Positions 15,643-26,791 of a DNA stretch of 64,000 nucleotides are shown one piece after another. The DNA is taken from the NCBI RefSeq assembly GCF_963676065.1, contig NZ_OY780933.1, forward strand, positions 930,001 to 994,000, given 5' to 3'. The stretch's first letter is position 1, and the number at the start of each line of letters is the position of its first letter. Below the pieces are notes generated by a model that was not told the DNA's origin, did no database searches, and saw only the letters and a program-made list of their open reading frames with translations. The position numbers and the translations under genes are program-made. The DNA is from Maridesulfovibrio sp. (GTDB lineage: Bacteria > Desulfobacterota > Desulfovibrionia > Desulfovibrionales > Desulfovibrionaceae).

Positions 15643-15667
15643 AATATAACGGTTTTATTTTTATAGA

Positions 15668-15697
15668 GGGCGCTGCACACTTGCAGTGCCCTTTTCT
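15668..15697 (+). terminator. Terminator after dapF
   Basis: GGGCGCTGCA pairs with TGCAGTGCCC (one G-T pair) around a CACT loop, followed by TTTTCTT. Confidence 0.85.
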
Positions 15698-15820
15698 TCG
15701 CACAGCTGTATTCATCAGCTTAATTTTGTTATTACTTAAATCTATCCTTGCAAGGTTAAACTATTCCTTGTATAGCCTTCTTTTCGCAAGAATGATGATT
15801 TGTCGGATAATGCGTATTGT

Positions 15821-15853
15821 TGTTTTTCAGTAAAAAACACTGTTTTGCAGTAA
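15821..15853 (+). promoter_or_regulatory. Phased direct repeat upstream of a sigma-54 promoter
   Basis: TGTTTTTCAGTAA (15821-15833) and TGTTTTGCAGTAA (15841-15853) match at 12 of 13 positions and start 20 bp apart, about two helical turns. They lie about 85-115 bp before the sigma-54 promoter at 15937, where activator sites are usually found. Activator binding is inferred. A 10-bp palindrome CCTTGCAAGG at 15746-15755 is also present. Confidence 0.45.
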
Positions 15854-15936
15854 TATGTTAAAAATTATAATGTCTTTGTTTTATTAATTGCTTGAAAATA
15901 AAGCACTAAATGTATGTGTATTATTACATAATAAAC

Positions 15937-15952
15937 TGGCATGAAAATAGCT
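15937..15952 (+). promoter_or_regulatory. Sigma-54 promoter of the CII-like gene
   Basis: TGGCATGAAAATAGCT has the GG and GC pairs exactly 10 nt apart and matches the core of the sigma-54 consensus. Transcription would start near 15963, about 39 bp before the chosen ATG. It lies in a 338-bp AT-rich space (15643-15980) without other genes. Confidence 0.65.
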
Positions 15953-16001
15953 TATTATCAAGAGTAGTAATTACAAAATAATGATTAAAGGGAGAGATAA
16001 A

Positions 16002-16487
16002 ATGGCTAATAACGAGCTTACCAAGCTTTTGCAGGATGTTGTACTCAAAAATGATAAGCCTGCACGTGATGTGGCAAATGAAATCAGCAAACCTTACCCC
16101 ACACTTCTTCGTGAGATTAATCCCGAAGATAAAGGTGCTAAAGTTGGCATTGAAGAATTGATTCCCATCATGCGCGCAACCGGCAGCATCCGTCCCCTGA
16201 CCAGACTTGCAAACATCATGGGCTACGTGCTTGTTCCTATGGATATTAACCCCGAAGATCCTGATGAAGCCAACTACATGGCTCTAGATCTTATGGATGG
16301 TTTCGGTAGATACTCCAAGGCTCTCAAGAGCGCTCTGCAGGCCGATCCTTCTGATGAACTGGTTGATTCCGTAGAGCAGGAAGGCTTCGAAGCAATCACC
16401 GCCATCCTTACTATGGTTCATTATCTGCGTAAAAGGGCAGAAGAAGAAAAAGCCAAGAACGCACCCCGTCTCGCTCAGGTCAGCTAG
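16002..16487 (+). CDS. Phage-CII-like regulatory protein
   Basis: This 161-aa protein resembles the phage regulatory CII family (the P2-type Cox/CII group). It has an N-terminal DNA-binding-like region NDKPARDVANEISKPYPTLLREINP (about residues 15-40), then IEELIPIMRATGSIRPLTRLANIMGY. This layout is seen in free-standing chromosomal proteins as well as phages. The ATG at 16002 has AAGGGAGAG 5 nt before it; an in-frame ATG at 15981 lacks one. There are no other phage genes near it, and its sigma-54 promoter argues for a domesticated host regulator. The function is unknown. Confidence 0.75.
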   Translation: MANNELTKLLQDVVLKNDKPARDVANEISKPYPTLLREINPEDKGAKVGIEELIPIMRATGSIRPLTRLANIMGYVLVPMDINPEDPDEANYMALDLMDGFGRYSKALKSALQADPSDELVDSVEQEGFEAITAILTMVHYLRKRAEEEKAKNAPRLAQVS

Positions 16488-16510
16488 CAGGCGAATAAGA
16501 AGCATACAAA

Positions 16511-16543
16511 AAACCCCGGTAGTGAAAACTGCCGGGGTTTTTT
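16511..16543 (+). terminator. Terminator after the CII-like gene
   Basis: A 12-bp stem AAACCCCGGTAG/CTGCCGGGGTTT (one mismatch-tolerant pair) is followed by six T. Confidence 0.9.
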
Positions 16544-16605: not shown

Positions 16606-16821
16606 TCAGCAATCGTGTACGTCTTTATTAATGTAAAAACACAGGTCAAAAAGGTTGTTGACCATCTGGTCCACAAGATGATCCTGCTCCGGATTGGGAG
16701 CTTGTGTGTTAACTGTCTTATTGATTATCTTGGCAAATAATACTGAGACGAGTTCATCATCTTTGTTGGTCCAGTATTTTGTTGCAGACGCAGTTTTATT
16801 ATCGAATCCATGATAATACAT
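16606..16821 (-). CDS. Small hypothetical protein
   Basis: This is a 71-aa ORF of unknown family, with aromatic residues at the N-terminus (MYYHGFDNK) and two cysteines near the C-terminus. A strong ribosome site GGAGG lies 5 nt before the ATG at 16821, which supports translation; a longer frame starts at 16842. It is single and divergent from the chemosensory operon. Nothing else can be said of its role. Confidence 0.55.
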   Translation of the reverse strand: MYYHGFDNKTASATKYWTNKDDELVSVLFAKIINKTVNTQAPNPEQDHLVDQMVNNLFDLCFYINKDVHDC

Positions 16822-16994
16822 ACACTCCTCCGTGAGTGGCATCGGTCGGCCATAAATTTGTCCGCCTGTTCATATTTTTGCTATCGGCAGGTGGAGGTGT
16901 TCACTTTACATTGAAATGATATATTTTTTTGAAATGGAGCAAAAAGCCTGCGGTCATTGATTTAATCATGTAAAATAAATACAAGGGATAAATG

Positions 16995-17015
16995 GGTGAC
17001 AGGACACCTGTTACC
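16995..17015. promoter_or_regulatory. Inverted repeat upstream of the chemosensory operon
   Basis: GGTGACAG and CTGTTACC (7 of 8 complementary) are spaced by 5 bp, 65-85 bp before the first MCP gene. This is a candidate operator. The rest of the space 16843-17079 shows no gene. Confidence 0.35.
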
Positions 17016-17088
17016 TGAGTTTTAATCTACCTAATCTGTAATAAATGGTGTCTCCGTCTGCGCTGACGGATGTACCGGGATGGATCCG

Positions 17089-19311
17089 ATGCGTTTTTCC
17101 CTCAGAAAAAAGATAATAGCCATTGCCTGTGGAGCCGCAATCATCCCCATTGTGGCTATGTTCATCATCACCGACGTGCTTGAGGACCGCTTACAGGACT
17201 GCATAAAAAATGAAGTCTATTCCCTTATTGAATCACATGTTTCCCAGCTTACGGCTGATCTTTATGAGGAATGCCGTACTTCGGATCAATTGCTGGTCGC
17301 GGAAACAGACAGGGCGGCTATGGCTTTGGAAGTCCTGCTGGAAGATCAAGGTCGGGTAAAGGTCTTAAAAAGAGTTTCGGATTGGCCGGTCAATAACCGC
17401 AGGGCATCCGGTAAAGAAGAAGTAACAGTTCCTGTGTTGGTCATCGGCGGGCGGGAGCTTACTTATGCCGGCAGCAAGGGCAAACCGTTACCTATGCTGG
17501 TGGAAGCTACACGTATTTCCGGGGCCTTCTGCACTGTTTTCCAAAGATTCAATCCTGAGGGCGATATGCTGGTGGTGGATACCACGGCAGAATCCGGGGA
17601 GGAAAATTGGCAACCGGGAGATATCTTTTATTCTCTAAGCGATAACGGCAAGGTGGAGTCGGTTATCGGCGATGTCCTTTCCGGTCGTACCGTTAAAAAA
17701 TATGCACTCCAGAATGACGGAACCCGCTACACTATTTACGTTCCCTTGCGCGATCAGGACGGATATGTAACCGGAATGATTGCCGTATATATGAATAATG
17801 ACATCATTGATATATTGCGTAAGTCCATGTTCAAAACCACCATCGGCAAGAGCGGATACCTCTGGTCAATCGGCAGCAGAGGAGAAAATAGGGGCCGTTA
17901 TATTGTCTCCAATTTAGCTGAAAATAGCGCTACCTCTGCGGATGCCGTGGGCGAAAATAAAGAATTCGTGGAAGAAATCATCAATCAGGCTGTTGAATCA
18001 GGAGAAGGCACACTCAGCAGCAAAGCCTATGTCTGGAAAACCGGGGCCGACAGTGACGGCCGGAAGAAAATTTCTGTATACACCTACTTCAAACCTTGGG
18101 GCTGGGTTGTCGGGTCCAGTGTTTTTCTTGATGAATATCAGGGTATTTCCGATCGCTTAACCGGCGTGCTCAATTATCTGGTTGAGTGGTTGACTATCAC
18201 CGGAGTGCTCCTGCTGATAATCACTCTTGCTGTTTCCCTTTATGCCAGCGGGCTTATTGCCGATCCGGTCAGCCATATGATGGAGCTGGTTAAGATTATC
18301 GCCTCGGGTGATGTGTACAAGGCAAAGAAAAGTCTGGCCGTTGTTGAGGAGAATTGTCCCAATGCCCGCAAGGCTATCCTGCATGCCGAGACGCCGGAAG
18401 TGCTCGATGAGACCGGACAGCTTTACCTTGCAATCAGGGAAATGGTCGAGGCTCTCTATTCCCTTATTGGGCAGGTGCAGCGTTCGGGAATTCAGGTAAC
18501 CACCTCATCAACCGAAATTGCAGCCTCGGCACGTCAACTTGAGGTGACCTTTAATCAACAGGCCTCCGCTACCACCCAGATAAGCGCCACCAGCGCTGAG
18601 ATTTCCGCAAATTCAGGTGAACTGGCCAGAGCCATGCATCATGTTAATGACTCCGCCTCAACTATGGACTTACTCGCATCTGAAGGTCAGGACGGCCTTA
18701 AGACGATGATCAGGATCATGGATGATCTGAGTAGCGCCACGATCACCATCACCGGCAAGCTGGATGAAATCAACGATCGGGCCAATTCAATTGAAGGCAT
18801 CGTCAACACCATAACCAAAGTGGCGGACCGCACCAACCTGCTTTCACTTAATGCCGCGATTGAAGCGGAGAAGGCCGGTAAGTTCGGTCAGGGTTTTTCT
18901 GTTGTCGCTGCCGAAATTAGACGTCTGGCTGATCAGACTTCCGTAGCCGCTCTCGAGATTGAAGATATGATCGGCAATATGCGCTCTTCCGTTGATTCCG
19001 GTGTGGATGAGATGGAAAAATTCGCTTCGGATGTCCGTTTCGGAGCGGACAAAGCAGGCAAACTGGGTAAAAAACTTGACGGTATCATGATCGGGGTCCG
19101 GGAACTGAATCCCAGAATTGAACAGGTCAACGACGGCATGAGCGCACAGGCTGAAGGGGCCGGACAGATTAGCGAGGCCATGGCGCAGCTTTCCGATACC
19201 GCATCGGATACTTCCGATGCTCTTGCGGAATTCAACCGGGCGACATCGCAGCTGAACGAAGCCGTGCAGGGCTTACGCAGCGAAGTTTCGCGTTTCAAGG
19301 TGAGTGAATAG
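17089..19311 (+). CDS. Methyl-accepting chemotaxis protein, Cache type (WspA position)
   Basis: This receptor of about 740 aa has a TM helix at about residues 8-30, a large periplasmic region of Cache_3-Cache_2 type (with [13 protein letters not shown] and [17 protein letters not shown]), a second TM near 365-390, a HAMP region and a cytoplasmic signalling hairpin. The tip reads [23 protein letters not shown], the sequence style of Wsp-type receptors rather than the ALNAAVEAARAG of flagellar ones. It heads the operon, with the first cheW 2 bp after its stop. An in-frame ATG at 17080 is an alternative start; both have weak SD signals. The ligand is unknown. Confidence 0.9.
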
Positions 19312-19313
19312 TC

Positions 19314-19799
19314 ATGCTGGTACTTACATTCAGGATAGGTAAATATATTTACGGTCTTGAAGCCAAGCTTGTGGCCGAGGTTGTTCCCCCCGCTGTGTGC
19401 AAGGAGCTGCCCCGTTCACCGGATTACGTGAAGGGGCTTTTCAACTATCGCAGCCGGGTTACCCCGCTGGTGGACCTTTCCATGCTGGCCATGGACACGC
19501 CCTGCGCTTCGCGAATGTCTACCCGCATTATCATCATCGATCTGGCCGATCTTGATGACGGAGAGGAACGCAATGAGAAGTTTCTGGGACTGCTGGCTGA
19601 AAATATTACTGCAACTTTGAAAATTGGGGATTCTGATTTTGAGGATTCCGGACTGGAAATACCGGATGCCCCGTGGCTTGGGCGGGTGGCTCGGTTCAAT
19701 GGAAATATGCTGCAACTGGTTAAGCCGCAGAAGCTGCTTACGGATGAGTTGCACCGGGTGCTTTTTCCTAAGGAAGAACTTAGCGGGCTTCAGGAGTAG
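19314..19799 (+). CDS. CheW coupling protein (WspB position)
   Basis: This 161-aa, single-domain CheW protein joins receptors to the CheA kinase. It shows the CheW beta-barrel pattern: LTFRIGKYIYGLEAKLVAEVVPP at the start, LPRSPDYVKGLFNYRSRVTPLVDL in the middle and GNMLQLVKPQKLL near the end. Gaps to both neighbours are 2-3 bp, so it is part of the operon. Confidence 0.92.
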   Translation: MLVLTFRIGKYIYGLEAKLVAEVVPPAVCKELPRSPDYVKGLFNYRSRVTPLVDLSMLAMDTPCASRMSTRIIIIDLADLDDGEERNEKFLGLLAENITATLKIGDSDFEDSGLEIPDAPWLGRVARFNGNMLQLVKPQKLLTDELHRVLFPKEELSGLQE

Positions 19800-19802
19800 G
19801 TA

Positions 19803-21056
19803 ATGGACCTTGAGCCGTTCTATAAAATTCTCAACCGGGCTATGGGGCTTGCCCCTGACTCACTTGCCCGTTCCGGAGTTAAATTCGCTCTGAAATCACG
19901 TATGCGTGAGACCGGGTGCGATGAGCGGGAATATCTGGCCCAGCTGCGGTCCAATGATCGGGAGCTGTCCGAGTTTATTGAGGAAGTGGTGGTCCCTGAA
20001 ACATGGTTTTTCCGGGATAGAAAGCCTTTTGATCTGCTTTTTGAAACCGCAATGGAGAAGAAAAACGAAGAATTCAGGGTACTCAGTGCCCCCTGCTCAA
20101 CCGGGGAAGAATCCTACTCCATAGCCATGACGCTTATGGGAGCCGGGCTGAAGGATTTCCGTGTGGACGGAGTGGATATCAGTAAGCGGGCTTTGCACAA
20201 AGCGAAGGCTGGAATTTATTCGGATAATTCTTTCCGCTCGGAAGTTCCCTTATATGCCAAACGTTGGTTCAGTAAATGTTCGCAGGGACATAAGCTGGCG
20301 GAGGATATCAGGAATGCGGTCAGTTTTCATTCCGGGAATATTATTGAAGGTGGTTTTCCCCAAGGCCGATATGATGCGATATTTTGCCGTAACTTAATGA
20401 TTTATCTGGATGAAGGATCGCGAAAAAATCTGGCTGAATTGTTAAGTTCCAAATTGCGTGATGACGGGCTGCTCTTTGTGGGACACTCTGAGATTCTGCC
20501 TGTTCTTAATGATTGGTTCACTCCGGTCAGGAAGCAGGGAACATTCGCATTGCGTAAAGGCCGGTTGAAGGTGGCCAAGCTGCTCCGGCCGGAAGGGGCT
20601 GGCGGGTATACCGGCGGTCTAAAGTTCAAAAAAATTCCGTACCTACCGTCTATGCCTATTGCGCCGGTTAAGCCTGTTGCGTCGCTTCGTCAAAAGGAAG
20701 CTGCCGGAATAGATCAGCAGGCCCATCAGAAACCGGTTCAGGATGAGATTTCAATAGATGAAATCAAGTTGCTGGCGGATAGGGGAGACGTTTCCAAGGC
20801 TCTGAATATGTGTGAAAAGTTGTTGCAGCGTGGTCCGGACCCGGAACTGTTTCATCTTTGCGCCCTGCTTCATGAATCTGAAGGAAATATTGCAATTGCT
20901 GAGGAGTTTTACGGCAAGGTACTTTATCTGGAACCGGACCATGTGGAAGCGCTGGTCCATTACGCCCTGCTGCTTGAAAACAGAGGGGATTCGCGCAAGG
21001 CTGAAATTATGCGTAACAGAACCCTCCGCGCTGAAAAAAGAAATGAGGCCGGATAA
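19803..21056 (+). CDS. CheR receptor methyltransferase with TPR tail (WspC-like)
   Basis: The enzyme methylates glutamates of the operon's receptors. Residues 1-260 hold the CheR N-terminal and SAM-binding domains, with EEVVVPETWFFRDRKPF, SAPCSTGEESYSIAM and IFCRNLMIYLDE. After a proline-rich linker (about 275-320) there are TPR-like helices to residue 417, the same architecture as Pseudomonas WspC. The stop overlaps the next start by one base (TAATG). Confidence 0.93.
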   Translation: MDLEPFYKILNRAMGLAPDSLARSGVKFALKSRMRETGCDEREYLAQLRSNDRELSEFIEEVVVPETWFFRDRKPFDLLFETAMEKKNEEFRVLSAPCSTGEESYSIAMTLMGAGLKDFRVDGVDISKRALHKAKAGIYSDNSFRSEVPLYAKRWFSKCSQGHKLAEDIRNAVSFHSGNIIEGGFPQGRYDAIFCRNLMIYLDEGSRKNLAELLSSKLRDDGLLFVGHSEILPVLNDWFTPVRKQGTFALRKGRLKVAKLLRPEGAGGYTGGLKFKKIPYLPSMPIAPVKPVASLRQKEAAGIDQQAHQKPVQDEISIDEIKLLADRGDVSKALNMCEKLLQRGPDPELFHLCALLHESEGNIAIAEEFYGKVLYLEPDHVEALVHYALLLENRGDSRKAEIMRNRTLRAEKRNEAG

Positions 21057-21712
21057 TGTTTGAATCCTGCTGGAATACCATCGGTTACGCCGGGAACAGG
21101 TCCTGTCCTGAACTTGAGCGTTGGAGCCACTGCTATCATTGCCCGAATTTTACCAGTGTCGGATTGTCTCTGTTGGACCGGGAGCCGCCTGATGGGTATC
21201 TTCAGGAAAATACCGAGGCTGTAGCTATTGCCAAGGAAGAGGAACAGTCCGAAACTGCCGGTGCAGTTGTGTTCAGGATTTCTCGGGAATGGCTGGCACT
21301 GTCATCAAGTGTTTTTGTATCGGTACTGGAAAAAAGGACTGTGCGCCCGGTGCCGCATCGCAACAGCAGGAGATTCCGTGGACTGACCAGTCTGCAGGGA
21401 CAGATCATTCCGGTCGTTTCCGTGCGTGATCTGCTTGGCCTTGAGGATGAATATCTTACTGAAGAGGAAAAGGGGTTTCGGGTTTATAGCAGGCTTATCT
21501 GTGTGGACCGGGGATTCGGGCGCTGGATTTTTGCGGCGGATGAAGTGCTTGGCGTTCATTACTATTTCCCGGATGCGCTTATGGATGCCCCGGCAACGGT
21601 AGCCAAGGCCCCTGCGGCATATACCCGAGGCCTGTTTGAAGTGAATGGAAAACGAATTTCATTGCTGGAAGACGAGCTTCTCTTCGAAGCTTTTAACCGT
21701 ATCATCAAGTAA
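21056..21712 (+). CDS. CheW-domain protein with N-terminal cysteine motif (WspD-like)
   Basis: This 218-aa protein has a CheW domain at about residues 65-210, preceded by a short cysteine motif: C5, C17, C26 and C29 in the pattern CW-IG-G--SCPEL and HC-HCP. The same N-terminal style occurs in WspD proteins as I recall them. The four cysteines could hold a metal. As the second CheW of the operon it probably couples a receptor to the kinase in the same array. A 41-bp gap, the longest but one in the operon, follows. Confidence 0.88.
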   Translation: MFESCWNTIGYAGNRSCPELERWSHCYHCPNFTSVGLSLLDREPPDGYLQENTEAVAIAKEEEQSETAGAVVFRISREWLALSSSVFVSVLEKRTVRPVPHRNSRRFRGLTSLQGQIIPVVSVRDLLGLEDEYLTEEEKGFRVYSRLICVDRGFGRWIFAADEVLGVHYYFPDALMDAPATVAKAPAAYTRGLFEVNGKRISLLEDELLFEAFNRIIK

Positions 21713-21753
21713 GGCGGAAATTATGAGCAACAGCAGTACAGGGAGAAAATAAA

Positions 21754-24585
21754 GTGACGCGAGATATGGCTGATCTTTCCATGCTGGAACTTTTCCGCAT
21801 GGAGGCGGGTAAACATACTCGGGTGCTTGAAGAAGGCTTGCCCGGAATGGCTGCCGACGTCTCCCCGGAAAAGATGCGGCCTCTTATGCATGCTGCTCAG
21901 TCCCTTAAAGGCTCGGGGAAGATCGTGGGGCTCGCTGAGGCTGTGGATATTTCACAGGCCATTGAAACTCTTTTGGATAAATGTTCCGGTTCAGGCAATC
22001 CTCCGGCGCAGGCAGCTATTGATTCCCTGTTGGAAGCAGCGCGCTTTCTGCACTCTCTTGCGGAAGTGGAAGCCGAGGAGATGGATGGCTGGCTGGAAAA
22101 ACGGGAAGACGAATTTAAAGACCTGCTGGGGCGGATTAAATCTTTTGAATCAGTTGAAGACAGCGAGCAGGCCCCTCCCGAATTTGAGCCCGAGCTTCGG
22201 GAGCAGGAAGTTCATGGTCCTCAAACCCTGCCGGAGGAAGATATTCCGGCGCATGATCCTGCTCCGTCCGCCGAGGGCATCCCTCTTGCCGATCTTTCCA
22301 TGCTCGACCTGTTCCGCATGGAGGCCGAGAGCCATTCACAGTCTTTGAACGCCGGATTGCTGGAGCTGGAAAAGGATCAGTCCCCGGATAAAGTGGAACC
22401 GCTCATGCGCGCGGCTCATTCCTTGAAAGGAGCGGCCCGTATTGTTGGACTGAATGATGCCGTGGCCCTTGCGCACGCCATGGAGGATCTGCTGGTGGAC
22501 TGCCAGAACGGCAGGACCGTGCTGGATAGCGGCCAGATTGATTTGCTCCTCGCGGCCACCGATATATACCGCGATCTTTCCCGTCTCGATACTGACGCGA
22601 TTCAGGGTGCTTTGAGCGAACGCAAGCCGTTTATGGATCAGATGGAAAAGGCATTGCGTGGTGATGAGAATGCAGCGCAGCTGGTTTGTGCCGAGGTCTG
22701 CCCGACAGGCTCTCCTCTTTCGGTTCGGGAACCTGTCGCTGAGACGCCAATAGAGCCGGTCCCGGAAGTTGTAGAAGAACCTTCCCAGCAGCCCATGGAA
22801 GCAAACCTTGTTAAATCTGAATTTGCTCCCGCGCAGGGAATCCGGGCACCGAAAGATTCTGTGGTTCGTGTTTCCGCCGGGAACCTGAACAGGCTTATGG
22901 CCCTTGCCGGGGAAAGTCTCGTGGAGTCCGGCAGACTGGGCGAGTTTGCTTCTTCTCTGCTGCGGCTTAAGGCCGGGCACAGGGATCTGATGAAGCTGTT
23001 GGAAGAATCCTGTGAGCGGGTCCGGCACGGGGAAGCGGCCGAAGATGTTGTTAATGCCTTGAAGGATGCTGTAAATGATTGTCAGGTCCGTCTGGTCAGG
23101 CATATCAACGAATTTGATCTTTATCGTAGACGCAACGATAATGTTTCGGGCAGGCTGTATCATGAGGTTATAGCCAGCCGTATGCGTCCTTTTTCCGATG
23201 GTGGACGCGGATTTCCCCGCTTGGTCCGGGATCTTGCCCGCACGTTGGGTAAAGAAGTTGATTTCGTGGTTGAAGGTGAAGCCACTTCCGTGGACCGCGA
23301 TATTCTCGATAAACTGGAAGCCCCCCTCAATCATCTAATTAGAAATTCCGTGGACCACGGCATTGAGCTGCCGGATGAGCGTATTGCCGCCGGTAAGCCT
23401 GCAACCGGGACCCTTAAAGTCATTGCCGGACATCGGGCGGGAATGCTTTTTATTGAAGTGCGTGACGATGGACAGGGGCTTGATCCGGAAAGAATCAGGA
23501 GCAAGGTTGTGGAGCGCAAGCTTGCCCCGGCACGTATGGCTTCGGAAATGAGCCGTGCGGAACTGATGGAATTTCTTTTTCTGCCCGGTTTTTCCACTGC
23601 CGGAAAGGTCACGGAAATATCCGGGCGCGGCGTCGGTCTGGATGTGGTTCACGCCATGGTTCAGGAGGTTGGCGGTACTGTTCGCGCTGAATCAGAACCC
23701 GGACATGGCATGTCGTTTTCCATGCAGCTGCCGCTTACCCTTTCGGTTATACGCACCCTGCTGGTCAAGATAGCAGATCAGCCTTACGCAATTCCTTTAA
23801 GCCGCATCAGCCGGATTGCGTCTATCCTGCCGGAAGAGCTTAGGCTGGCCGAGGACCGTCAGTATATCTCGCTGAACGGGGCAAATGTGGGGCTTGTTCC
23901 CGCAGCCCAGATTCTGGGGATCGCCCCCGGTAATTCAGAAGATGAAGTTCTCAAGGTCGTGGTTATCAGTGACCGTATGAACAGGTACGGTCTGGTTGTG
24001 GATGATTTTCTGGGCGAACAGGATCTGGTGGTTCGTCCGCTGGATCACCGGCTGGGTAAGGTCCCGGATGTGAATTCCGTTGCTATGATGCCCGACGGTT
24101 CACCTGTGCTTATCCTTGATGCTGAAGATCTGGTGCGTTCCATCGATAAACTCCTTTCCGGCGGCAGGCTGGGCAAGGTCGGTGTGGAATCCTCAGAGAG
24201 CGGTCCGGCGCAGAAGATTCTGGTGGTTGACGATTCCCTTACTGTGCGTGAGGTGGAGCGCAAGCTGCTGGCCAACTACGGTTATGATGTCGACACGGCT
24301 GTGGACGGTCAGGACGGGCTAAACGCGCTTATTTCCGGTGAGTATGATCTTGTGGTTACGGATGTTGATATGCCGCGTATGAACGGTCTGGAACTGACCC
24401 GTAAGATTAAGGAGAATCCGGATCTCAAATCCATTCCGGTGATGATGGTTTCCTACAAGGATCGCAAGGAAGACAAATTCCGGGGTCTAGAAGCGGGAGC
24501 GGATTACTACCTGACTAAAAGCAGTTTTCACGATGAGACTTTGCTTTTGGCCGTTGAAGATCTGATTGGCGGGGCCGTAAAATGA
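21754..24585 (+). CDS. Hybrid CheA kinase, Hpt-Hpt-kinase-CheW-REC (WspE-like)
   Basis: This 943-aa histidine kinase has two Hpt domains. In the second (about 175-290) H222 lies in RAAHSLKGAARIVGL and is the phospho-site. In the first (about 5-110) the matching residue is Q49 (HAAQSLKG), so it cannot be phosphorylated there. The kinase core has NHLIRNSVDHGIE, DDGQGLD and SGRGVGLDVV. A CheW-like domain follows at about 655-790, then a complete receiver (VVDDSLTVRE, TDVDMPRMNG, YYLTKSS). The start is a GTG with GGGAGA 7 nt before it. It overlaps cheB by 4 bp. Confidence 0.94.
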   Translation: MTRDMADLSMLELFRMEAGKHTRVLEEGLPGMAADVSPEKMRPLMHAAQSLKGSGKIVGLAEAVDISQAIETLLDKCSGSGNPPAQAAIDSLLEAARFLHSLAEVEAEEMDGWLEKREDEFKDLLGRIKSFESVEDSEQAPPEFEPELREQEVHGPQTLPEEDIPAHDPAPSAEGIPLADLSMLDLFRMEAESHSQSLNAGLLELEKDQSPDKVEPLMRAAHSLKGAARIVGLNDAVALAHAMEDLLVDCQNGRTVLDSGQIDLLLAATDIYRDLSRLDTDAIQGALSERKPFMDQMEKALRGDENAAQLVCAEVCPTGSPLSVREPVAETPIEPVPEVVEEPSQQPMEANLVKSEFAPAQGIRAPKDSVVRVSAGNLNRLMALAGESLVESGRLGEFASSLLRLKAGHRDLMKLLEESCERVRHGEAAEDVVNALKDAVNDCQVRLVRHINEFDLYRRRNDNVSGRLYHEVIASRMRPFSDGGRGFPRLVRDLARTLGKEVDFVVEGEATSVDRDILDKLEAPLNHLIRNSVDHGIELPDERIAAGKPATGTLKVIAGHRAGMLFIEVRDDGQGLDPERIRSKVVERKLAPARMASEMSRAELMEFLFLPGFSTAGKVTEISGRGVGLDVVHAMVQEVGGTVRAESEPGHGMSFSMQLPLTLSVIRTLLVKIADQPYAIPLSRISRIASILPEELRLAEDRQYISLNGANVGLVPAAQILGIAPGNSEDEVLKVVVISDRMNRYGLVVDDFLGEQDLVVRPLDHRLGKVPDVNSVAMMPDGSPVLILDAEDLVRSIDKLLSGGRLGKVGVESSESGPAQKILVVDDSLTVREVERKLLANYGYDVDTAVDGQDGLNALISGEYDLVVTDVDMPRMNGLELTRKIKENPDLKSIPVMMVSYKDRKEDKFRGLEAGADYYLTKSSFHDETLLLAVEDLIGGAVK

Positions 24586-25604
24586 GAATAGGAATTGTGA
24601 ATGATAAGGCTCCATTGGTCGATATTCTGAAAAAAGTACTGCTTTCAGATGGGCATGAGGTTGTCTGGATTGCCCACAACGGCGAAAGGGCCGTTGAAAA
24701 ATGCTCCAATGATGTGCCTGATCTTGTCCTGATGGACCTGATTATGCCAGTACTTGACGGGGTCTCGGCAACTCGGGAAATAATGAAGAAAAGCCCATGT
24801 CCGATACTTATCGTCACATCCAGTGTTGAAAGCAACTCGTCCAAAGTGTTTGAAGCCATGGGGGCCGGAGCCCTTGACGTGGTCGCTACGCCTAAGAACG
24901 GTCCCGATGGTGAAATAACGGGCGGACAGGCGTTGCTTGCTAAAATTGTAGTAATCGGAAAGCTGCATGGAAACGGCAGGGTCCGTGAGCACGCGAAGCC
25001 CTTGGCAAAAGAAAGGGTAATCCCTCCGCTGCTGGCTATAGGAAGTTCCACGGGCGGTCCTTCAGCTCTTGCCGAACTGCTCGGAGGATTGCCGGCAGAT
25101 TTCCCGGCGGCCATAGTCATAGCCCAGCATGTGGACGGTCATTTTTCGGAAAATTTAGCCCTATGGCTGGACAGTCAGACAGAAATAAAAGTCGCCCTGG
25201 CCCGCAGTGGGAGATCTGTGCAGGCCGGACATGCTCTTATTGCTCCGGGGGATCAGCATATGCTCATAAAGCCGGGAGGCATAGTGGAGCTGACCGACGG
25301 ACCCGGTAAAAATATTTATGTACCTTCTGTAGATGTTCTTTTTGACAGCATCCGTCTTGGCGGATTTTCAAAACATTCAGTAGCCGTATTGCTGACTGGA
25401 ATGGGAGCCGACGGAGCACGGGGCATGCTTGATCTCAGGAATATAGGTTGGATGACCATTGCGCAGGATAAGGAATCGAGCGTAGTCTGGGGAATGCCCG
25501 GTTCAGCGGTAAAGATGGGGGCTGCCCGTGAAGTCTGCTCTATTGGAGATATGGCCGGATTGCTTGTAAGGCATTTTAAAAAACTTTTTCAGGAGTTAAA
25601 ATGA
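24582..25604 (+). CDS. CheB receptor methylesterase (WspF-like)
   Basis: This 340-aa protein has an N-terminal receiver (phospho-acceptor in LVLMDLIMPVLDG) and a C-terminal methylesterase with the catalytic triad motifs SSTGGP (Ser), IAQHVDGHF (His) and TGMGADGARGM (Asp). The late motif SVVWGMPGSAVKMGA is also typical. It removes methyl groups from receptor glutamates and so counters the CheR of the operon. It overlaps both neighbours by 4 bp. Confidence 0.94.
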   Translation: MRIGIVNDKAPLVDILKKVLLSDGHEVVWIAHNGERAVEKCSNDVPDLVLMDLIMPVLDGVSATREIMKKSPCPILIVTSSVESNSSKVFEAMGAGALDVVATPKNGPDGEITGGQALLAKIVVIGKLHGNGRVREHAKPLAKERVIPPLLAIGSSTGGPSALAELLGGLPADFPAAIVIAQHVDGHFSENLALWLDSQTEIKVALARSGRSVQAGHALIAPGDQHMLIKPGGIVELTDGPGKNIYVPSVDVLFDSIRLGGFSKHSVAVLLTGMGADGARGMLDLRNIGWMTIAQDKESSVVWGMPGSAVKMGAAREVCSIGDMAGLLVRHFKKLFQELK

Positions 25605-26791
25605 TGACCGAAGGCAAAGAGCAACTGCTCACTGAGCATAAAATCAATGTTCTGCTGATAGATGATCAGCCTATGGTTGGTGAAGCTGTGCGACGCATGC
25701 TGGAAGGTGAAGACGACATTGATTTTCATTTTGTGAGTGATCCGACTAATGCCATACCCACAGCTGAGAAGTTGCAGCCTACGGTAATACTGCAAGACCT
25801 TGTCATGCCCGATATTGACGGAATGACAATGGTCAAGTTCATGCGGGTTAACTCCCGGCTCAAAGATATTCCCCTGATTGTGCTCTCTACCAAAGAAGAA
25901 GCCACCACTAAAGCGGAAGCCTTTGCCAACGGTGCCAATGATTATCTGGTTAAACTCCCCGATCGCATCGAATTGCTGGCGCGTATTCGGTATCACTCCA
26001 AGGGTTATATTAACCTCCTGCAAAGGAATGAGGCCTACAAACAGCTGCTGGAGAGCAGGGATGAAATGCGCAAGGAACTGGCCGTGGCCGCCGATTACGT
26101 TACCTCCCTGCTGCCGGAACCGGTTAAAGAAGGGGACATTCAGGCCGACTGGAGGTTTATTCCTTCTGCCTCACTCGGCGGGGATTCTTTCGGCTATCAC
26201 TGGCTGGATGATGATCATTTCGCCATGTATCTGCTTGATGTCTGTGATCATGGAGTAGGCTCCGCGCTGCTTTCGGTTTCAGCCATGAATGTGCTTCGTT
26301 CACAGACCCTGCGGGATACTGATTTTCTTAAGCCGGATGAGGTGCTGACTGCTTTGAACGATTCGTTCCAGATGGATCAGCAGAACAATCTTTATTTTAC
26401 GATGTGGTACGGTGTTTATCGTAAATCAGATCGGACACTGACTTATTCCAGTGGCGGCCATCCCCCGGCACTGCTTATTTCCGGGGATGAGGTGCAGCAG
26501 TTGCGCACTCCGGGAATGATCGTGGGAGGCATGCCGGACATGACCTACACAAGAGATTCGGTAGTAGTTAAGCCGGGAGCCCGTTTTTTTCTCTACAGCG
26601 ACGGGGTGTACGAGCTTAAAAAGGTGTCTGACGGCAAGATGTGGGAATTTGAGGATTTTTCCGAGTTTATGAAAGAAACCGGCAAAAAGCTTGGTGAACC
26701 CATTGAAGAGCTTATAGCCTACACCCGCAAGTTGCAGGGTTCCGAGCTTTACGAAGATGATTTTTCCATGGTTGAATTTGTCTTTGCCTAA
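25601..26791 (+). CDS. Response regulator with SpoIIE/PP2C phosphatase output (WspR position)
   Basis: This 396-aa protein has an N-terminal receiver (about 15-135) with D66 as phospho-acceptor, and the runs PTVILQDLVMPDIDG, VLSTKEEATTKAEAFANGANDYLVKLPD and ARIRYHS, which closely match the WspR receiver as I remember it. A helical linker (LLQRNEAY..) leads to a PP2C domain (about 165-395) with intact metal aspartates in GGDSFG, LLDVCDHGVG, LYSDGVYE and EDDFSMVEF. Phospho-serine/threonine phosphatase activity gated by the chemosensory kinase is expected. The substrate, perhaps a STAS-domain antagonist, is not in the window. Confidence 0.92.
   Translation: MMTEGKEQLLTEHKINVLLIDDQPMVGEAVRRMLEGEDDIDFHFVSDPTNAIPTAEKLQPTVILQDLVMPDIDGMTMVKFMRVNSRLKDIPLIVLSTKEEATTKAEAFANGANDYLVKLPDRIELLARIRYHSKGYINLLQRNEAYKQLLESRDEMRKELAVAADYVTSLLPEPVKEGDIQADWRFIPSASLGGDSFGYHWLDDDHFAMYLLDVCDHGVGSALLSVSAMNVLRSQTLRDTDFLKPDEVLTALNDSFQMDQQNNLYFTMWYGVYRKSDRTLTYSSGGHPPALLISGDEVQQLRTPGMIVGGMPDMTYTRDSVVVKPGARFFLYSDGVYELKKVSDGKMWEFEDFSEFMKETGKKLGEPIEELIAYTRKLQGSELYEDDFSMVEFVFA

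Follow-up and report, generated by a model that had tools for sequence, protein, structure and literature searches.

The window analyzed here, a 64,000-nucleotide stretch of a Maridesulfovibrio sp. contig, holds a gene for a CII-type regulator of 161 amino acids, with dapF upstream of it and a convergent small gene, orf78, followed by a chemosensory gene cluster on the other side (Table 1). The original prediction had described a sigma-54 element at 15937 with GG-N10-GC spacing, two upstream 13-mers 20 bp apart and alike at 12 of 13 positions, and a strong terminator after the gene. All of these were recovered. The element is TGGCATGAAAATAGCT, one mismatch away from TGGCAYGNNNNTTGCW, and the 13-mers are TGTTTTTCAGTAA at 15821 and TGTTTTGCAGTAA at 15841. 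The hairpin after the gene is symmetric and could serve orf78 too.

Table 1. Features in and around the CII-type regulator gene (positions within the window)
Feature	Position	Strand	Basis or remark
Hairpin then TTTTCTT after dapF, probable dapF terminator	15668..15691	+	Read from the sequence; not listed by a simple terminator scanner
Sigma-70-like block TTGCAA-N17-TATAGC, possible second promoter	15748..15776	+	17-genome comparison; absent in G105
Conserved block TGATT-N5-GATAAT, no assigned function	15796..15811	+	Window from 15796 ties second of 327
Dyad 1, proposed activator site (holds first 13-mer)	15817..15833	.	Genus alignment; whole-genome pattern search
Dyad 2, 20 bp from dyad 1 (holds second 13-mer)	15837..15853	.	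Genus alignment; pattern search; worn in G129, G048, G150, and G152 (4/17)
Sigma-54 -24/-12 element (putative)	15937..15952	+	Strict in 14/17 orthologues, and in G023 and G024; rank 1 of 327 windows
Ribosome binding site GGGAGAG	15990..15996	+	Read from the sequence
CII-type regulator gene (Phage_CP76), ATG start at 16002	16002..16487	+	Pfam; PHROG 101; genus-wide presence
Symmetric terminator hairpin	16508..16543	.	16 pairs; fold -26.2 kcal/mol

The product matches the Pfam family Phage_CP76 (PF06892) at 46 bits (cut-off, 26) over profile positions 5 to 145 of 146, and its second family match is PHROG 101, the CII-like activators. Both assignments agree with the earlier description of a phage-CII-like regulator. 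A full-length orthologue was found in all 17 genomes of the genus, with 88 to 98% identity in the other 16. Across the family, 91 of 149 genomes contain CP76 matches, most of which span only about the first 80 residues. Comparison with the gene studied here gave dN/dS values of 0.016 to 0.070 in 14 of 16 cases, the remaining 2 being saturated at synonymous sites. By these estimates the protein is under strong purifying selection, with synonymous sites mostly replaced. The predicted structure is all-helical in a poor model (mean pLDDT, 45.7). A sequence search of solved structures gave no meaningful match, a phage collection yielded one weak partial match, and no relative was confirmed among viral contigs in a scan based on two short peptide patterns. 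Nothing scored above the gathering threshold in an Rfam scan.

CII of coliphage 186 belongs to the same two families (PF06892 and PHROG 101) and resembles the protein in sequence family over most of its length and in being a small helix-turn-helix (HTH) regulator. In that temperate phage, CII functions in lysogeny, as stated in the portion of PMC7708051 consulted. Whereas a phage lysogeny activator (CII proper) resides in a phage or prophage, the gene described here has no phage setting and instead has conserved host synteny and a predicted sigma-54 promoter.

A Pfam scan of neighboring genes showed ordinary bacterial genes and no prophage gene, in line with the earlier remark that no other phage gene lies nearby. 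The synteny of related genomes, which the original prediction had proposed as a check, was compared by tblastn of window proteins on fetched genome stretches. The genes dapF, CII-type regulator, orf78, MCP, CheW, CheR, CheW, and CheA are grouped at one place in each of the 8 other genus genomes compared, and likewise in G023, from another genus. In G024, from a third genus, the CII-type gene is followed by the same set, with dapF about 4 kb away. G117 carries a second, partial dapF match (87 aa) in the interval from dapF to the CII-type gene (L044 7052-7312, 8535-9377). The setting was not shared around six distant homologues (L052 and L054 to L058) or around a second CP76 gene in G074 (L059). 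Taken as a whole, the comparisons support a view of the gene as a stable chromosomal resident of the genus and two relatives, in a non-phage setting.

The family takes its name from phage CII, and L059 adjoins repressor-like and ParA-like genes, so mobile-element-like relatives do exist in the same genus. Both facts could suggest that the CII-type gene is the regulator of a prophage remnant with no host role. Such a remnant would not be expected in every genome of the genus, at one syntenic place wherever checked, under strong purifying selection and with no phage gene among the scanned neighbors, and we consider this explanation very improbable. The characterization of the gene as a domesticated phage-type regulator holds for the CII-type protein and for its stable non-phage setting. 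A phage origin is plausible, but phages may instead have drawn on a chromosomal family.

Conservation upstream of the gene was ranked in a 17-genome comparison of 343 positions in 16-bp windows. The 16 bases from 15937 came out at the top of 327 windows (0.79, versus a mean over positions of 0.56). The form TGGCAYG-N6-GCT is retained in 14 of the 17 orthologues, and a key base is lost in the other three (GG-N10-GA in G007 and G074; AG instead of GG in G150). Strict sites were also found before the syntenic orthologues in G023 (57% identity) and G024 (36%), 54 to 62 bp from the gene according to which start is taken, while a full-length homologue in G016 (43%) has neither the site nor the synteny. 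The GG-N10-GC of the element stands in a TGGCAY..GC context, and rpoN is present in the genome.

It is important to note that a single sigma-54 motif match, taken alone, is weak evidence. The pattern TGGCAYGNNNNTNGCT is not enriched across the whole genome (3 matches, versus 6 for the reversed control), as would be the case if the element were a chance match; thus, the sigma-54 claim rests on conservation across genomes rather than on the single match. That conservation holds in the genus, in other genera, and before other CP76 genes (see below), and a strict TGGCAYG-N6-GCW site arose in 3 of 4,000 shuffles of 15643-16001. Against these results, a chance origin is scarcely credible.

A 13-mer pair alike at 12 of 13 positions appeared at a spacing of 20 in none of 400 dinucleotide shuffles of the upstream region, and at any spacing from 13 to 45 in 9 of 400. 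Genus-wide, the 13-mers read as part of two dyads, TTNYTG-N5-CARNAA, with centers 20 bp apart. Counted on the sequence, about 118 and 138 bp separate them from the predicted transcription start further downstream. When the dyad pair was searched for in the 17 whole genomes with at most one mismatch, 85 matches were obtained, versus 27 for the reversed control (sums over tables). Exact matches numbered 12, in 9 genomes, every one at this promoter, and 4 genomes more had a one-mismatch match there. The single dyad TACTG-N5-CAGTA was rejected, with 4 places in the genome studied, about the chance expectation; 2 of these 4 exact palindromes lie within 7 kb of rpoN (G000:C1:3564431 and 3565003, in L040), perhaps by chance. 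With a conserved element and, upstream, a putative activator site conserved as two dyads, genome comparison supports the sigma-54 promoter with upstream activator site of the original prediction. On sequence grounds, we regard this reading as well supported.

The windows from 15796 and 15763 rank next in conservation and point to additional conserved blocks, including a sigma-70-like one. This sigma-70-like block may give another transcript. It could also be the main promoter, in which case the later conserved elements would be operators or leader and the sigma-54-like site would be minor. Judged by eye, 16 of the 17 upstream regions keep the block, and its conservation almost equals that of the sigma-54 element. 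However, this arrangement leaves the strict GG-N10-GC in 14 of 17 orthologues unexplained, and GG-N10-GC also occurs in two other genera that lack the sigma-70-like block and before other CP76 genes. We therefore judge it unlikely.

We scanned the 250 bp upstream of 72 other homologue loci for the sigma-54 site. Exact TGGCAYG-N6-GCW was found at 5 loci (G023, G024, and three genomes of genus g28), and one-mismatch sites were found at L147, L161, and L165; the reverse-strand control of the same scan was free of exact and one-mismatch sites alike. In all three g28 genomes, the site precedes a 104-aa CP76 gene, directly upstream of which lies a gene for an NtrC-type sigma-54 activator (REC-AAA-HTH; domains scanned in one genome). 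The downstream side, scanned in one genome, has genes for a kinase and a REC-HDOD protein. At the g28 locus L184 (3373-7098), the CP76 gene with its putative sigma-54 promoter stands between a sigma-54 response regulator gene and a kinase gene.

In genus g5, the 9 genomes of a first set have a CP76 gene of 82 aa (102 aa in one genome), and in all 9 it is preceded by a site with 0 or 1 mismatch; the sister paralogue had none. The prediction was then tested on 16 further genomes, where the site was present in 16 of 16 cases and before none of the 16 sister paralogues. In total, the site precedes 25 of 25 short CP76 genes and 0 of 25 sister paralogues, these 25 being all the g5 genomes among those listed with a CP76 match, and some being near-copies. 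The upstream repeats are ACACTTGTGTC-like in g28 and TGTCGCA/TGCGACA in g5; thus, the activators or their specificities would differ between the two genera. In a tree of 93 sequences, the sigma-54-labelled genes fall into three groups and one doubtful row, and the label of L161 is probably a chance match. The label requires at least 5 changes, 3 of them forced by starred branches, on a tree that has few columns and long branches and does not separate gain from loss.

The predicted pairing of a CII-type gene with a sigma-54 promoter is found in other clades of the family; it is thus no single exception and extends further than the one locus revealed. Its recurrence in related sulfate-reducing bacteria hints at an undescribed regulatory relay. 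Tentatively, and with slightly less than even confidence, we propose that CII-type HTH genes of the Desulfovibrionaceae repeatedly became outputs of sigma-54 activators, and that a relay of activator, sigma-54, and small CII-type regulator is widespread and undescribed, with an activator site that differs per clade and with the sister paralogues outside it. The promoters can be directly tested in many species, and in g28 a candidate activator adjoins the gene.

For the locus itself, we think it likely that the CII-type gene is a signal-gated transcription-factor gene. A sigma-54 activator (enhancer-binding protein) would bind the two dyads and, on a signal, open the sigma-54 promoter. Transcription would begin at a predicted start near 15963 and yield the CII-type HTH protein, which would act as a second-tier regulator of its targets. 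The promoter, dyads, family, synteny, and selection come from computation, and we infer that RNA polymerase with sigma-54 uses the promoter, that an activator binds the dyads, that the product binds DNA, and that the two tiers form a cascade. The adjoining chemosensory operon is a candidate target by conserved adjacency, which can be historical. The genome has 28 strong and 3 weak matches to sigma-54 activators. The nearest activator gene (872-2335) was rejected as the partner, since only 4 of the 8 genomes compared have it close to the locus (contig ends may cut some stretches). A counterpart of the g28 activator was likewise sought, and many similar activators are present in this genome, with no clear partner.

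In the portions of PMC4641369 consulted, the sigma-54 promoter consensus of Desulfovibrio vulgaris Hildenborough is given as tGGcacg / tTGCt, the activator sites of its sigma-54 regulons are palindromic and mostly next to the activator gene, and regulators are among the targets, suggesting cascades; D. salexigens is one of the genomes included. The predicted arrangement at our locus resembles these regulons in promoter consensus, palindromic activator sites, and a regulator as target, and no CII-type sigma-54 target was found in those portions of the main text. Our search of open-licence literature found no paper on a Phage_CP76 or CII regulator in Desulfovibrio, or on CII with an enhancer-binding protein there, which is weak evidence of absence; the one paper found on a CII-like protein and sigma54 concerns a Salmonella prophage. 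Sigma-54 cascades are well known, as are phage-type regulators, and their conserved joining was not found in our search of the open-licence literature. The locus invites the question of how phage-type regulators come into host signalling.

The chemosensory cluster (17080-26791) has a Wsp-like order, with MCP, CheW, CheR with TPR, CheW, CheA with REC, and CheB. The Wsp gene order ends with a REC-GGDEF output protein. The last gene here instead encodes a REC-SpoIIE phosphatase, so the cluster lacks the Wsp output. In the gap between orf78 and the MCP gene, a block TTGATTTAAT..AAATAAATA (16960-17000) is conserved before the MCP gene in 9 aligned genus genomes and is possibly a regulator site; nothing connects it with the CII-type protein, and it was rejected as a site for that protein.

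The small gene orf78 (16606-16842, minus strand) encodes a conserved protein of 78 aa without a Pfam match and occurs in 36 of 149 family genomes. In most other genera (L109 to L130), the CII-type gene is absent and a CheA-matching stretch of about 100 to 125 aa, perhaps a receiver domain, lies beside orf78. Upstream of orf78 is the element TAAAG-N15-GCCGATAG (16881-16908, minus strand), which we take to be sigma-28-like. Its TAAAG and CCGATA parts vary neither in sequence nor in spacing among the 9 aligned genus genomes, and its sigma-28-like character suggests a role for orf78 in motility or chemotaxis.
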